In this document: positions 8,145-15,380 of the stretch, one piece after another | How positions within the stretch are numbered: position 1 is the stretch's first letter | Layout of the letters: the number at the start of each line of letters is the position of its first letter | Assembly: GCA_945901095.1 (NCBI GenBank) | Contig: CAMDKQ010000008.1 | Coordinates: 1-33,975 of the forward strand | DNA length: 33,975 nt | Origin: Bifidobacterium breve | Lineage (GTDB): Bacteria > Actinomycetota > Actinomycetes > S36-B12 | Direction: 5' to 3' | The notes under the pieces: generated by a model | Told to the model about the DNA's origin: nothing | Databases searched by the model: none | What the model saw: the letters and a program-made list of their open reading frames with translations, nothing else | Translations under genes and position numbers: made by a program

Positions 8145-8363
8145 ATGACCGTTACCAGTGCCGCGGCCGACGCCCGGGCAGCCGTCGCTACCCGCCGTGA
8201 GCAGTTGGACGAGGTTCGGAGGCGCCACGGAGCCAGCAATCCGCGGCTCTTTGGATCCATCGCCCGCAGTGACTCCACCACGGGTAGCGACATCGACGTC
8301 CTCGTGGATCTCGACCCGGGAGCGGGACGGCCTGTGGGCAGAAAGCGCACCCGCGGGTGGTGA
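8145..8363 (+). pseudogene. Truncated MNT-type nucleotidyltransferase (antitoxin remnant)
   Basis: From ATG 8145 the product reads as the N-terminal half of a minimal nucleotidyltransferase: RREQLDEVRRRHGASNPRL, then the signature LFGSIARSDSTTGSDIDVLVDLD with the GS motif and two metal-binding aspartates. After DLDPGAG the homology stops and an unrelated tail (RPVGRKRTRGW) ends at TGA 8363. The third Asp strand and C-terminal helices are missing, so it cannot be catalytically complete. No HEPN partner follows. It resembles the nucleotidyltransferase half of the intact fusion at 12677, and may be a relic of a second MNT/HEPN locus. Confidence 0.7.
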
Positions 8364-9100: not shown

Positions 9101-9109
9101 GGCGTGGGG

Positions 9110-9675
9110 TTAGCTGACTAAGGTGAGGGTGACCACCCCGGTGATGATGACGACCACCGCGATTACCTGCTGCCGCCCAGGCCGTTCGCGGAACAGCAGG
9201 TAGGCGGCGCCGCCGAGATCGGCGCGAAGAGCGATGCAGATGAGTGTGACGATGCGCGCCGGCAGGAGGATCCACTCGAGCGGCAGCTCACCGCTGATGT
9301 TGCCGGTGGCGAACAGGCCGATGCCGAAGTTGATGGCGCCGGTCGTGGCGATGAGTGCGGCTTTAGGGGGCTGCTCATTTTCGACGGGCACAGGATCGGG
9401 GCGACGACCCCGACCTTTCCGATGCGGAATGCGGCGTAGGCGAGGAGGAGTCCGCAGAGATTACCGAGCCCGCCGACGATGAGCCAGGTCGCTTTTGTGG
9501 CGTTTAGCTTTTCCGGGATGCCGCCGATGAAGAGCACCGGGGTGATGATGACGAGGCCGACCATCATCATTCCGGCGATGGCCGAGAGCGGCCCGATCAT
9601 GGGTACGAGACTCGATGATGCGAGGGTTCCGGCGGAGAAGAAAAATGCCGTGAGAAGACCGAACATGATGCTCAT
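9110..9675 (-). pseudogene. DMT/EamA-like permease, copy A, inactivated by two internal deletions
   Basis: Closely similar to the intact permease at 13590-14432. The N-terminus (MSIMFGLLTAFFFSAGTLAS...) runs to GVVAPILC, then frame is lost; a second frame resumes PVENEQPPKAALIATTG to GVVTLTLVS. Compared with the intact copy it lacks 127 bp between two GCACAGGATC repeats (a single copy remains at 9388-9397), lacks 149 bp between two AGCGA repeats (remaining copy 9230-9234), and has lost one A near 9210. The sum (843-127-149-1 = 566) equals the observed length exactly. About five of ten membrane spans are lost, so the product cannot work. It lies directly downstream of the intact SEC-C gene on the same strand. 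Confidence 0.93.
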
Positions 9676-9747
9676 GTGGGGTCAACCAACCGTCTCGCCG
9701 AATGTCCGCTGGTCAGCGGGGTGACGTTGACCCGTTCAGGCGGCTGC

Positions 9748-12381
9748 CTACTTCTCGAGGCCGAGCGCCGCTCGCAGACGCTTTGAGCTCATCGTGCCGA
9801 GCTCTTCCTCGTCCCGATCGAAGCTGGCCAGCAGCGCGATGAGGTCCGGCCTTCGGGTCGGGTCGGCCGCTGCCTCGCGGGGGGTCAGGCCCGAGAGGGC
9901 GGGAAGCTGATCGTCGAGCCATTTCTTCTCATACGTGCGGATGTACTCCTCGAGGACCGCGACCATCGCCGGATCGTTTTGGTCGAGCATCCCCGACTCA
10001 CTGTCGTCCGTCGGATGGCCCCCGCGCGCACGGATCGCGGCGGAATATTCGTCTTTCATGCTCGTGCGCTCATCCTTCACCACGACGAGGTCAGGGCACA
10101 GCGCGCGCAGCACCCCGAGAACCCTGTCCATCCGGTTGGTGCTGTTCGTCTGGATCGTGAGTTGCTTGTGGGCCCAGTTCAAGGTGGCTCGGATCTTCTG
10201 CTCGCCATGCGTGACGACGCACTCGTGCCAGGTGCGCTGTGACGTGGCCGTGGGCTTCTTGCCGGTGTCGACGGCCTCGTAGGTGTCGTCAAGCCCGGCC
10301 AGCAGTCGCTTGGTGTTTGTTACCGTCACGACGGCCTCGCACATGATGGATTCCTCGCCCTCGGTATTGACGATGGTGGGTGGGGCGTAGCGGCGTGACA
10401 GGAACTCGATGAGGTCGTACGGGTTAGGCTCGTCGTCAAGTAACTCAATGAGCGCATCGCGGTAGCGCAGATCGATGGGCTCGACGGCTCCGATGATCTG
10501 CATCATCGATCCCACCGTGACGATTCGGGTGCAGATGAGGCTTCCGGGTGTCACCATCTGACTCGCCGTACGCTCGACGATCTCGATCCGGTCGCCGGTG
10601 CGAAGATCGCGCAGCAGCATGCCGACGCCGGGAGTGGTCTCCAGGATCTCGAAGACCGAGCGATCGGCGAGGAGCCACTGCTCCGCGAGCAGGTACTCAT
10701 CCGCCGGGAGCAGGAATCCCCGCTGGGAGAGGAATTCCTCGAACGCGCCGCCCTCGAACATGAGTACATCCAGGACGAGCCCATCCTTGAGTGCCTCATC
10801 TATAGGTTGGTTTGGTCCCCATTGGGCGGACCAAACCTCGGCAAGTTCGATGACCTGCGGCTTCAGGGGACCGTCCACGACGAAGATGCTGGCCTTCGTG
10901 TAGAGCCACATGGCGCGCTCCTCGACCGGGAGTTGCTCACGATGTTGATGGCACTGCTTGTATTTTCGGCCTGACCCGCACCAGCAGCGGTCATTGCGAC
11001 CGATATCGTCACGAATCGGTGCACTGTAATGCTCGAGGGTCTGGCGGAGCGGGTCGTCGGCTTCGGCGCCTGCCCGGTTCAGGAGCGCGAGGCCGCGAGC
11101 AGCATCACCTCGGTCGCTCGCGAAGCGGGCGAGGTCGAACAGTGGCAGTGGCCACGATGGATCGAGGGATTCGGCTGAACTGAATACCTCCTCGGCCTCC
11201 TTGATCATCCCGAGCCGCTGGAGCGCCGTGGCCTGGAGCCACAGCAGGGCGACCCGCGCCTGCCTCGGCGCCAGTTCGGTGAGGGCGCCGGTGAAGACCG
11301 CGAGTACTGCCGCTCCCGCGACATCGACGCCCATGACTTCCTGCGAGAAGGACTCGGCGATACCTGGATCGGTGAGCCGGGAAAGGGTCTCGCGAGCCCC
11401 CGGGAACTGACCAAACCCCTCGAAGCCTCCGCTGGGGGAATCCCCCGCTTCCACGAGTGTCTCGAACTCCATGGTGAAGGCCGCGTAGAGGTCGAGCAGG
11501 GAAAGTAGCGCGTTGACCTCGACGTCACCGAGCCCGTAGCTCGCACTGAGTTCCTGCGAGGCGCCGGCTAGGTTCGCGGCCTTGAAGTCGAACCCGGCGC
11601 GTGCGAAATGCTCTTGGAAGACCGAAAGCCCAGCGAGTTGAAGCATCTCACCGATGGGCAGCGTCAGCCCGGTGAAGGAGCCGGGCAGGTCGACGCAGGA
11701 CTGCCAGATCGCGGCATCGATCTCAACCGGATGGCCGTGCTCGATGGCGAACTCGCGCATGAGTGCGACGATCTGCACCGATGGCGGGGTGACGGCACCC
11801 ACCGGCACCGCCTCGATGAGCCAGCCATCATCGGTCGCCTCGACAGAAACGAATTCGCCTGCAGTCGCCTTGATCCCGGTCAAGAAGCCGGTCGGCAGCA
11901 TCCACCCCATATCCGGTACGGACTGCGGCGGAATGCCGCGCGCATCCGTATCTCCCCGGGTGAGCATGCCAGCGATCGGCTCGATTGGCTGCCCGTCGGC
12001 GAGGAAGTGATACTCGTCGCGTTCTGTGAGCATGATGAGCGGGGCAAGGTCGGGGAGCAGTGCCAGCATGTCGAAGGCGACCTCGTCCTCGGTGAGCCGG
12101 TGGGTGAAGCGATGGCCGCTGAGCAGGGTGGGCAGGTGCGCCATGCGGTCGTCCACGAGGAAGTAAACGAGGTGCTCACCATCATCGTTGAGCGCATCTT
12201 CGACCCAGGCTTCGGGAGCGTCGTCGAAGTCGGGATCCATGTGGACGCCGTCCGCCCTGAGGGACTCGACGATCTCCTCCTCGGTGAGGGGCCCCCGCTC
12301 GGCGAGGAGGCGCGCGATCGCTTGGCCGTCGGTCTGCGCGGGTCGTCCGATCTTCTTGCTCACGCCGTCCTTCTTGCTCAT
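9748..12381 (-). CDS. Large SEC-C zinc-motif protein, 877 aa, function unknown
   Basis: Cytoplasmic multidomain protein. ATG 12381 (MSKKDGVSKKIGRPAQ) is taken as start; ATG 12414 would add 11 residues and neither has a strong ribosome site. The N-terminal part (about 20-110) resembles a winged-helix-like segment (AERGPLTEEEIVESLRADG). A helical, TPR-like stretch spans about 355-440 (LWLQATALQRLGMIKEAEEV). The SEC-C motif is DRCWCGSGRKYKQCHQH with Cys466, Cys468, Cys477 and His478 as likely zinc ligands. The C-terminal segment WLDDQLPALSGLTPREAAAD (from about 821) is a motif often found in actinobacterial SEC-C proteins and recalls antitoxin toxin-binding domains. SEC-C motifs bind ribosome or SecB in SecA; here the role is unknown. 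A decayed second copy lies at 14507-14695, and a DMT permease follows each copy. Confidence 0.8.
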   Translation of the reverse strand: MSKKDGVSKKIGRPAQTDGQAIARLLAERGPLTEEEIVESLRADGVHMDPDFDDAPEAWVEDALNDDGEHLVYFLVDDRMAHLPTLLSGHRFTHRLTEDEVAFDMLALLPDLAPLIMLTERDEYHFLADGQPIEPIAGMLTRGDTDARGIPPQSVPDMGWMLPTGFLTGIKATAGEFVSVEATDDGWLIEAVPVGAVTPPSVQIVALMREFAIEHGHPVEIDAAIWQSCVDLPGSFTGLTLPIGEMLQLAGLSVFQEHFARAGFDFKAANLAGASQELSASYGLGDVEVNALLSLLDLYAAFTMEFETLVEAGDSPSGGFEGFGQFPGARETLSRLTDPGIAESFSQEVMGVDVAGAAVLAVFTGALTELAPRQARVALLWLQATALQRLGMIKEAEEVFSSAESLDPSWPLPLFDLARFASDRGDAARGLALLNRAGAEADDPLRQTLEHYSAPIRDDIGRNDRCWCGSGRKYKQCHQHREQLPVEERAMWLYTKASIFVVDGPLKPQVIELAEVWSAQWGPNQPIDEALKDGLVLDVLMFEGGAFEEFLSQRGFLLPADEYLLAEQWLLADRSVFEILETTPGVGMLLRDLRTGDRIEIVERTASQMVTPGSLICTRIVTVGSMMQIIGAVEPIDLRYRDALIELLDDEPNPYDLIEFLSRRYAPPTIVNTEGEESIMCEAVVTVTNTKRLLAGLDDTYEAVDTGKKPTATSQRTWHECVVTHGEQKIRATLNWAHKQLTIQTNSTNRMDRVLGVLRALCPDLVVVKDERTSMKDEYSAAIRARGGHPTDDSESGMLDQNDPAMVAVLEEYIRTYEKKWLDDQLPALSGLTPREAAADPTRRPDLIALLASFDRDEEELGTMSSKRLRAALGLEK

Positions 12382-12477
12382 GCGAAGAAGAATACTGACG
12401 TGTCCATGCTGCATGATCCCGCTCTTCGGACTTCATTCGCGTACGGCGGACGAGTGACGTCAGACTGGGCACCCCTA

Positions 12478-12676: not shown

Positions 12677-13186
12677 GTGTCGACCAGCAGCCTTATCCGT
12701 TCGGCCCGAATGAGTGTGGGCCTTTCGCAGCGCAGCCTCGCAGCGTCCGCGGGCACGAGCCAACCGGCGATTGCACGCTATGAGTCAGGGCGTGCCGAGC
12801 CGAGGGCCGACACTCTGGAACGAATCCTCGCCGCCTGCGGACAGCGGCTGTCGCTCGTTCCCGTGCCAGCAAGGACGGAGAATATTCCGGCGCGTGGGCC
12901 GATGGGCCGACTTCTTCGCAGGCACCATGGGGCCGTTCTCCTCGCAGTCGAGCGGGCGGGCCTTCGAAACCCGAGATTGTTCGGGTCGGTTGCGCGAGGC
13001 GAGGACCATCATGGAAGCGACATCGACATCCTCGTCGACCTCAGAGACGATTCCGACGTGCTTGCCATCTACGAGTTGCGAGAACTTCTCGTACCGATGC
13101 TCGGCGACCGGGTGGATGTGGCCTGCCCCGAAGTCCTCAGGAAGAAGGTGCTCGCGCGCGCAATTGAGGAAGCGGTCGCGCTGTGA
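12677..13186 (+). CDS. HTH-Xre / MNT nucleotidyltransferase fusion (antitoxin of a HEPN-MNT pair)
   Basis: 169 aa. Residues about 5-60 form an Xre helix-turn-helix (RMSVGLSQRSLAASAGTSQP, then AIARYESGRAEPRADTLERI). Residues 80-169 form a minimal nucleotidyltransferase with LFGSVARGEDHHGSDIDILV (GS at 103-104, Asp115 and Asp117) and the third acidic residue in DRVDVA (Asp147). In MntA/HepT systems the MNT protein neutralises the HEPN RNase by AMPylation. Here the antitoxin also carries its own DNA-binding domain, so it may be enzyme and repressor at once. GTG 12677 is chosen because HTH homology begins there, and a -10 and palindrome lie immediately upstream (leaderless). The stop overlaps the HEPN gene by 4 nt. 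Confidence 0.88.
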   Translation: MSTSSLIRSARMSVGLSQRSLAASAGTSQPAIARYESGRAEPRADTLERILAACGQRLSLVPVPARTENIPARGPMGRLLRRHHGAVLLAVERAGLRNPRLFGSVARGEDHHGSDIDILVDLRDDSDVLAIYELRELLVPMLGDRVDVACPEVLRKKVLARAIEEAVAL

Positions 13187-13527
13187 CCGGGCGTGCGGAG
13201 CGCGAGCGGTTCGAAGACATCCTTGAAGCGATCGCCGCCATACGACGTCACGAGGAGTTTCGATGCGCAGGCGCGTCGTCATTGCTAGCGGTCGATGCCG
13301 TGAAATATCAGCTCATTGCGATCGGCGAAGCAGTCGGTGAGGTCAGCCAAGCGTCACGCAATAGCCAGTCGAGCATTCCATGGTCTCGGATCAAGGGCAT
13401 GCGCAACCTCCTCACGCACCGACACCACGACATTGATCGGTCTATTGTGTGGCAGGTCGTCGATTCCCACTTGGCGCAACTTGAGACCGCGGTTCGAGAA
13501 CTGCTTGCCGATCAGCCCCGCTCGTGA
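13183..13527 (+). CDS. HEPN-domain protein (DUF86, HepT-like toxin)
   Basis: 114 aa, GTG start overlapping the MNT stop (GTGA). The helical HEPN fold is indicated by FEDILEAIAAIRRHEEF, VDAVKYQLIAIGEAVGEVS and the C-terminal IPWSRIKGMRNLLTH...DIDRSIVWQVV. The RNase motif RX4H is Arg74-NLLT-His79. The position two after the histidine, usually Tyr in HepT (RX4HXY, the AMPylated residue), is His81 here (HRHHDID). The toxin may be modified elsewhere, regulated differently, or weakened. No stop codons or shifts disturb the gene, in contrast to most other toxin genes nearby. It converges on the DMT permease gene 62 bases further on. Confidence 0.88.
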   Translation: MTGRAERERFEDILEAIAAIRRHEEFRCAGASSLLAVDAVKYQLIAIGEAVGEVSQASRNSQSSIPWSRIKGMRNLLTHRHHDIDRSIVWQVVDSHLAQLETAVRELLADQPRS

Positions 13528-13589
13528 GTTCGGTGGGGTACCTAGAGTGCGCAGGCGGCAGGAAGTCGGCAGTGGGCCGCAGAGAGGGG

Positions 13590-14432
13590 TCAGCTCACAA
13601 GGGTAAGCGTGACCACCCCGGTGACGATGATCACGACCGCGATCACCTGCTGCCGCCCAAGCCGTTCGCGGAACAGCAGGTAGGCGGCGACCGCCGAGAT
13701 CGGTGCGAAGAGCGACGCGAGCACCGCGGTGATCGCGACACTCTGCGCAGCGCCGGTCGTATAGGCGGCGTAGCCGAAGATCTCCGCGACGCCGGCGAGG
13801 AGGATGAGTGGGGCAGCCGGGCGGGTCATGCGGAACTTGCGCAGCAGGAGAAGGGGGATAGCGATGCAGATCAGCGTGACGATGCGCGCCGGCAGGAGGA
13901 TCCACTCGAGTGGCAACTCACCGCTGATCTTGCCGGTGGCGAACAGGCCGATGCCGAAGATGATCGCACCGGTCGTGGCGATGAGTGCAGCCTTGAGGGG
14001 CTGCTCATTCTCGACAGGCACAGGATCTGGCGCGATGGCGGCGAGCACGACACCGCCAACGATAAGGAGGAGTAGGAAGATGACGATTGGCGCGATGCTC
14101 TCGCCTGCAAGACCCGAGATGGTCGCTGCGATCGCACCTTCGGTGCACAGGATCGGGGCGACGACCCCAACCTTTCCGATGCGGAATGCGGCGTAGGCGA
14201 GCAGGAGTCCGCAGAGGTTGCCGAGCCCGCCGACGATGAGCCAGGTCGCGTTGGTGGCGTTGAGCTTTTCGGGGACTCCGTTGATGAAGATCATCGGGGT
14301 GATGATGACAAGGCCGACCATCATCATTCCGGCGATGGCGGAGAGCGGCCCGATCATGCGGACAAGGCGCGAGGAGGCGAGAGTACCGGCTGCGAAGAAT
14401 AATGCCGTGAGGAGGCCGAACAAGATGCTCAT
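13590..14432 (-). CDS. DMT-superfamily permease (EamA-like), intact copy B
   Basis: 280-aa integral membrane protein with about ten hydrophobic segments in two five-span halves, typical of drug/metabolite transporters. It begins MSILFGLLTALFFAAGTLASSRL and ends RQQVIAVVIIVTGVVTLTLVS. The characteristic end-of-half features (GGVVLAAIA, and AYLLFRERLGRQQVIAV) are present. Substrate unknown. ATG 14432 is chosen, as homology with copy A begins there. A remnant of a SEC-C gene lies immediately upstream on the same strand, mirroring copy A, where the SEC-C gene is intact and the permease broken. It ends facing the HEPN gene. Confidence 0.88.
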   Translation of the reverse strand: MSILFGLLTALFFAAGTLASSRLVRMIGPLSAIAGMMMVGLVIITPMIFINGVPEKLNATNATWLIVGGLGNLCGLLLAYAAFRIGKVGVVAPILCTEGAIAATISGLAGESIAPIVIFLLLLIVGGVVLAAIAPDPVPVENEQPLKAALIATTGAIIFGIGLFATGKISGELPLEWILLPARIVTLICIAIPLLLLRKFRMTRPAAPLILLAGVAEIFGYAAYTTGAAQSVAITAVLASLFAPISAVAAYLLFRERLGRQQVIAVVIIVTGVVTLTLVS

Positions 14433-14506
14433 TACCGTTGATCCAACCACCCAGCGCGACCGCCGTACGTCGGCGGGGTGGCGTTCAGCCCGTGTGTCGC
14501 GGCCTC

Positions 14507-14695
14507 CTTCTCGTCGCGATCGAAACTGGCGAGGAGCGAGATGAGGTCCTCCCTTCAAGTTGGGTCGGCCGCGACGAGGCCGTCCTTAAGTGCCTCGGCG
14601 GAGGGGCGGCTTGGTCCCCAGTGGGCGGTCCATAGTTCGACAAGCTCGATGATCTGCGCTCGGATGTGATTGCCGAACCTTTCACGGACGCTCAT
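14507..14695 (-). pseudogene. Remnant of a second SEC-C gene (copy B)
   Basis: Two short blocks match the intact SEC-C protein: AQIIELVELWTAHWGPSRP then AEALKDGLV (matching about residues 508-535 of the intact 877-aa form), joined to AADPT and, after a shift, DLISLLASFDRDE from its extreme C-terminus. About 900 bp of the middle and the first 500 or so codons are gone. ATG 14695 would give only a 40-odd-residue peptide ending at a TGA near the junction. Its position upstream of the intact permease mirrors the order in copy A. Confidence 0.85.
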
Positions 14696-14769: not shown

Positions 14770-14982
14770 ATGACTGATATTCTCATTAGAAATGTACCCG
14801 ACGAAGTTGTGGCGGTGCTCAACGCCAACGCTCAATGCGCCGGTGTGACGAGAGCGGAGTATCTGCGCCGGGTTCTCGCCGAACAGCGAGGTCGGGCGCT
14901 GACACGCTAGCAACTCGACCGCTTCGCCGAACGTACCGCTGATTTGGGTAATCCCGAGGTGATGGCGGCCGCATGGCGGTGA
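14770..14982 (+). pseudogene. VapB-type ribbon-helix-helix antitoxin with in-frame amber stop
   Basis: From ATG 14770: MTDILIRNVPDEVVAVLNAN then AGVTRAEYLRRVLAEQRGR, a clear RHH antitoxin N-terminus. TAG at 14908-14910 interrupts it after 46 residues. The same frame continues QLDRFAERTADLGNPEVMAAAW to TGA 14982, the usual toxin-binding tail, giving 70 residues overall, normal for VapB. A truncated RHH protein could still bind DNA but would lack most of the toxin-neutralising tail. The intended end overlaps the vapC start by 10 nt, as in intact operons. Confidence 0.85.
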
Positions 14983-15380
14983 CCAACTGGCTCATCGACA
15001 AGTCAGCACTCAACCGCATCAACACCGCCAACGACGAGTGACTGGCGCGCATCCAACGCGGCCTTGCCAGGATATCGACCGTCACCCTGCTCGAGATCGG
15101 CTACTCCACTCGTAGTGGCTCTGATCACCGCGCCACGCTCGGTGAACCGCCGGTGTCATCGATGACGGTCGTGTACATCACTCCAGCGGTCGAAGCTCGC
15201 GCCATCGAGATTCAGATGCTGCTTGCGGACCGTGGGCAACACCGAGCACCGTCCATTCCTGATCTGCTCATCGCGGCGATCACCAACCAATACGTCGAGC
15301 GCCTCGACCTCTGATCCTTTGCGAATGTGCGAGTGCAGGACCACAACTGATTGGACGAGATCGCGCAGATCGCGCACTGC
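14973..15380 (+). pseudogene. VapC-type PIN toxin, nonsense-mutated and 3'-degraded
   Basis: ATG 14973 gives VTNWLIDKSALNRI, a PIN-domain start with its first acidic residue (LIDKSAL), then TGA at 15039-15041 where related proteins usually have Trp. The frame continues LARIQRGLARISTVTLLEIGYS...AIEIQMLLADRGQHRAPSIPDLLIAA, highly typical VapC sequence. After DLLIAA a deletion or rearrangement leads to TNQYVERLDL and stop at 15312-15314. A diverged trace of the end (VRVQDHN, stop, LDEIAQI) follows to about 15380. At least two lesions, so toxin activity is lost. Confidence 0.85.

Follow-up and report, generated by a model that had tools for sequence, protein, structure and literature searches.

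Short-direct-repeat deletions in an EamA permease pseudogene and complementary gene losses in two neighboring cassettes

Deletions associated with short direct repeats have been surveyed in a reducing lineage of Streptococcus agalactiae, where repeats were found at 70% of the indels longer than 4 nt, with a median repeat length of 8 nt (PMC3637634). The underlying model of slipped misalignment, in which replication pauses and the nascent strand is re-paired at a new position, has been summarised in PMC4627823. The locus described here lies in a window of 33,975 nucleotides from an actinobacterial genome, the whole stretch of DNA that was analysed, and carries two copies of an EamA permease gene, one of which is broken. 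The repeats at its two large deletions, of 5-13 bp, are comparable in length to the S. agalactiae median. We consider it very probable that the locus comprises two diverged cassettes, with the permease of one broken by repeat deletions via slipped misalignment and the SEC-C gene of the other mostly lost.

Gaps and direct repeats in the broken permease copy

The intact permease (13590..14432, minus strand, 280 aa) matches Pfam EamA with E=1.6e-17 and shares 95-96% amino acid identity with its counterparts in G001 and G003, two congeneric genomes. It harbors two stretches of EamA (PF00892), scoring 64.5 bits against a curated cut-off of 28.2. The pseudogene (9110..9675, minus strand) is recognised from its alignment with 13590-14432, from an EamA match to its residual open reading frame (E=2e-6) and from ORF read-through. 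Global alignment of the two regions (9105-9690 vs 13585-14447) displays exactly three gaps in the pseudogene. In coordinates of the intact copy, these are 1 base at 13690, 149 bases at 13711 and 127 bases at 14016-14018 (equivalent placements). The lost single base is an A, and the gaps account for the full difference between the two lengths of 843 and 566 (843-127-149-1 = 566).

The endpoints of both large deletions are direct repeats of the undeleted sequence, with one unit left behind. In the intact permease, GCACAGGATC is present at 14018 and 14145, a spacing of 127, and the pseudogene retains a single unit at the junction 9388..9397. Similarly, AGCGA is present at 13711 and 13860, a spacing of 149, with one unit retained at 9230-9234, within the junction feature 9230..9237. 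Neither junction is assigned to a strand, nor is the site of the single-base loss (9209..9210). Each deletion length could have yielded about 490 different products in the intact gene; only the observed one has 10 bp of junction homology in the 127-bp class, and only the observed one has 5 bp in the 149-bp class. For random junctions over all deletion lengths of 50-300 bp, homology of at least 10 bp has P = 0.0002 and homology of at least 5 bp has P = 0.011. The first-pass annotation had described repeat-bounded losses of 127 bp and 149 bp, the missing A and the 566-bp arithmetic, and had named pairwise alignment of 9110-9675 with 13590-14432 as the check. The alignment bears this description out to the base, with gaps coinciding with the repeats and one unit at each junction. 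It additionally reveals 58 substitutions among the 566 common bases (89.8% identity between the copies), which that annotation did not mention.

The polarity of the change can be read from relatives. We compared G001 and G003 along with two outgroups, G031 and G023, which belong to the same family but to a different genus. Full-length permease orthologues are found in all four, at 90-91% DNA identity for G001 and G003 and at 67-68% for G031 and G023. All four keep the 127-bp stretch, the 149-bp stretch and the base at the lost-A site. Hence, the undeleted state is ancestral, and the three gaps reflect sequence lost from the 9110 copy instead of sequence gained by the intact one. In G001 as well as in G003, the shorter repeat is 8 bp long, with AGCGATGC at each of its two positions and a spacing of 149. 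For the longer repeat, G003 has the 12-bp sequence GCACAGGATCGG, at a spacing of 127. As these exceed the repeats of the intact neighbor, the ancestral repeats of the pseudogene may have been longer than the neighbor implies, namely 8 bp and 12-13 bp.

Two cassettes with complementary losses

Both cassettes lie on the minus strand. In cassette 1, the broken permease is accompanied by its upstream partner, an intact gene for an 888-aa SEC-C protein (9748..12414, minus strand; Pfam SEC-C E=5e-9), which is 85% identical at the amino acid level to that of G003, with a dN/dS of 0.29. In cassette 2, the partner of the intact permease is a SEC-C gene remnant of ~165 bp (14500..14664, minus strand). 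It consists of two pieces, joined at 14572/14573, whose counterparts in the G003 gene are separated by ~0.9 kb, and it is 88% identical to that gene vs 77-81% to the intact SEC-C gene in the window. G001 and G003 have a single cassette each, SEC-C gene then permease, with matching flanks. A different gene is thus degraded in each of the two cassettes, and one intact copy per gene remains. With both cassettes present, one gene of each kind would have been redundant. The permease of cassette 1 would then have been broken by the 127-bp and 149-bp short-direct-repeat deletions plus the one-base deletion, and cassette 2 would have lost most of its SEC-C gene. Redundancy would be the reason for these losses, and replication slippage the process behind the permease deletions.

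Compared with the G003 copy, which is 12% diverged, the junctions of the SEC-C remnant have only 0-3 bp of homology, and repeat slippage therefore does not appear to explain every loss at the locus. The same repeat mechanism had been considered for the remnant from 9-bp blastn overlaps at the downstream junctions, and was rejected when direct inspection reduced these overlaps. Loss of this gene may have taken another route, or its signal may be blurred by divergence. A role of the SEC-C protein in anti-phage defence was likewise rejected, as its PADLOC matches extend only over a short zinc motif. SEC-C genes (9748-12414; L030:241-2871) evolve faster than the adjacent permease, with a dN/dS of 0.29-0.41 vs 0.07-0.09.

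The space between the cassettes is occupied by two plus-strand genes. An antitoxin-like gene with HTH and MNT-type nucleotidyltransferase features (12714..13186) is proposed from PADLOC, in which the frame 12509-13186 matches HTH and PDC-S09, and from reading the sequence; it is followed by a HepT-like (HEPN) toxin gene (13183..13527; Pfam HepT-like E=2.6e-17). A truncated MNT antitoxin-like gene lies at 8147..8353 on the plus strand, and its G001 version is intact. Permease-adjacent toxin-antitoxin-like modules differ among the three genomes of this genus, and several are truncated (8147-8353, 12714-13527 and 14771-15314; L031:10906-11645; L030:3851-4809); their types are MNT/HepT and, by sequence reading, VapBC/PIN-like. 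The interval, which has a pyrimidine nucleoside phosphorylase gene at one end and an adenosine deaminase gene at the other, seems to be a turnover hotspot. In two genomes of another genus (L032:7576-9537 and L033:7930-9908), the permease directly adjoins the adenosine deaminase gene, without SEC-C. Hence, the SEC-C gene and the modules were probably inserted later, or were lost in those genomes.

The second cassette might have originated as a diverged allele imported beside the resident one, rather than as a tandem duplicate, with reciprocal loss following; such an origin would be compatible with slippage. The two permease copies in the window are as diverged as orthologues from different species (89.8% identity vs 91-92%), and neither is nearer to the other than to the G001 copy, with which they share 90.6% and 91.5% identity. 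Their sites are mosaic. Across the 16 informative sites, the pseudogene sides first with G001, next with the intact copy and finally once more with G001, and this arrangement in three runs (p = 0.003) points to tract exchange. Because these sites conflict in blocks, one common tree of the four permease copies was rejected as unjustified. Synonymous divergence of the G001 SEC-C gene is three times that of the adjacent permease (dS ~0.9 vs ~0.3), indicating that allelic exchange has probably taken place here, and suggesting that the G001 SEC-C allele was replaced. However, an old duplication, followed by loss in G001 and G003 and by gene conversion between the copies, would leave an identical pattern, and the informative sites number only 16. 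We give the import of a diverged cassette slightly less than an even chance, with such a duplication and conversion as the other candidate history. On a broader and more tentative view, this interval, flanked by the nucleoside phosphorylase gene and the adenosine deaminase gene, might be an allele-exchange hotspot in the genus, where diverged SEC-C/permease cassettes would arrive by recombination next to the resident one, swap short tracts with it and be trimmed by small deletions to one working copy per gene.

Source and age of the permease loss

The most likely source of the two permease deletions would be RecA-independent slipped misalignment during replication. A nascent strand pausing within one repeat would re-pair with the other repeat, at a distance of 127 or 149 bases, and thereby skip one repeat together with all intervening sequence. 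Homology of 5-13 bp with one copy left would equally be the product of double-strand breaks processed by microhomology end joining or single-strand annealing, and the junctions of the SEC-C remnant do resemble those of end joining. Yet a search of the 92%-complete genome found neither Ku (PF02735) nor LigD_N (PF13298), making classical end joining less likely. Single-strand annealing, in turn, usually relies on much longer repeats. We therefore regard an origin of the deletions in double-strand breaks as unlikely, and slippage as a better fit than the either/or of slippage and annealing proposed by the first-pass annotation, which was right in assigning the losses to short-repeat deletion while placing the two processes on an equal footing. 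A hairpin-aided variant of slippage was also considered, as an imperfect palindrome (13701-13752) extends over the left AGCGA. It was rejected, since neither deleted stretch has a better hairpin potential than shuffled sequence (z -0.2 and -0.5), which argues against any structural aid to slippage.

The distribution of substitutions over codon positions offers a view of when the permease was lost. Differences between the pseudogene and the intact copy are distributed 12/6/40 over the three positions, indicating that most of the divergence accrued while both copies were functional. The private substitutions of the pseudogene (n=25) follow a flatter pattern, 7/5/13, than those pooled from three intact genes (n=44), 4/3/37. 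Positions 1-2 thus account for 12 of 25 changes in the pseudogene and 7 of 44 in its intact relatives (Fisher p = 0.006), which indicates that constraint was relaxed for part of the pseudogene branch. A simple mixture estimate puts the neutral share of this branch at ~0.21 (interval 0.01-0.66), corresponding to roughly its last fifth. The permease loss postdates most of the divergence between the copies, yet it is not fresh.

The reading frame is disrupted relative to the intact homologue. Codons 1-96 are contiguous and in frame, and frameshifts follow, leaving a residual ORF of 170 aa (9163-9675). This frame is open, its first 96 residues match EamA, and the two large deletions total 276 bp, which is divisible by three, so that a working half-size transporter might be envisaged. 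Past residue 96, however, the product is mostly out of frame and not permease-like, and with constraint relaxed on the pseudogene's own branch we find such a function highly improbable.

The first-pass annotation had taken the repeat unit left at each junction to date the loss as recent and to rule out assembly noise. Retained units and clean junctions carry no dating information, and "recent" holds only by comparison with how far the copies have diverged, the private substitutions being already relaxed. An assembly error is unlikely, but to call it ruled out is too strong for a judgment from assembled sequence alone. The genome is in 338 contigs, and in so fragmented an assembly the missing stretches could in principle be artefacts. 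However, a single contig carries both copies. Repeats of 5-13 bp fall far below assembly k-mer length, and the 25 private substitutions, with their different codon-position pattern, mark the pseudogene as a separate sequence; together these make an artefact barely credible. Overall, that annotation had the facts right and the mechanism mostly right, overstated the dating and the exclusion of assembly error, and missed the second cassette with its complementary loss.

Comparison with known systems

Slippage and reciprocal loss are well-known processes, and the locus is a clean new example of ordinary biology that alters no general view. Its value lies in the loss of a redundant gene being recorded at base level, with the intact copy adjacent and relatives giving the direction of change. 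The complementary losses in the cassettes offer a small example of a duplicated or imported gene pair reverting to single copy. The permease deletions resemble bacterial short-direct-repeat deletions in their 127-149 bp spacing, in the one repeat left and in the loss of the intervening sequence. They display no substantial difference from known slipped-misalignment deletions, with two such events present here in one gene copy. As in reciprocal loss after duplication of a gene pair, each cassette has lost a different gene and one intact copy of each is left; in contrast to such duplicates, the cassettes described here may derive from import of a diverged allele.
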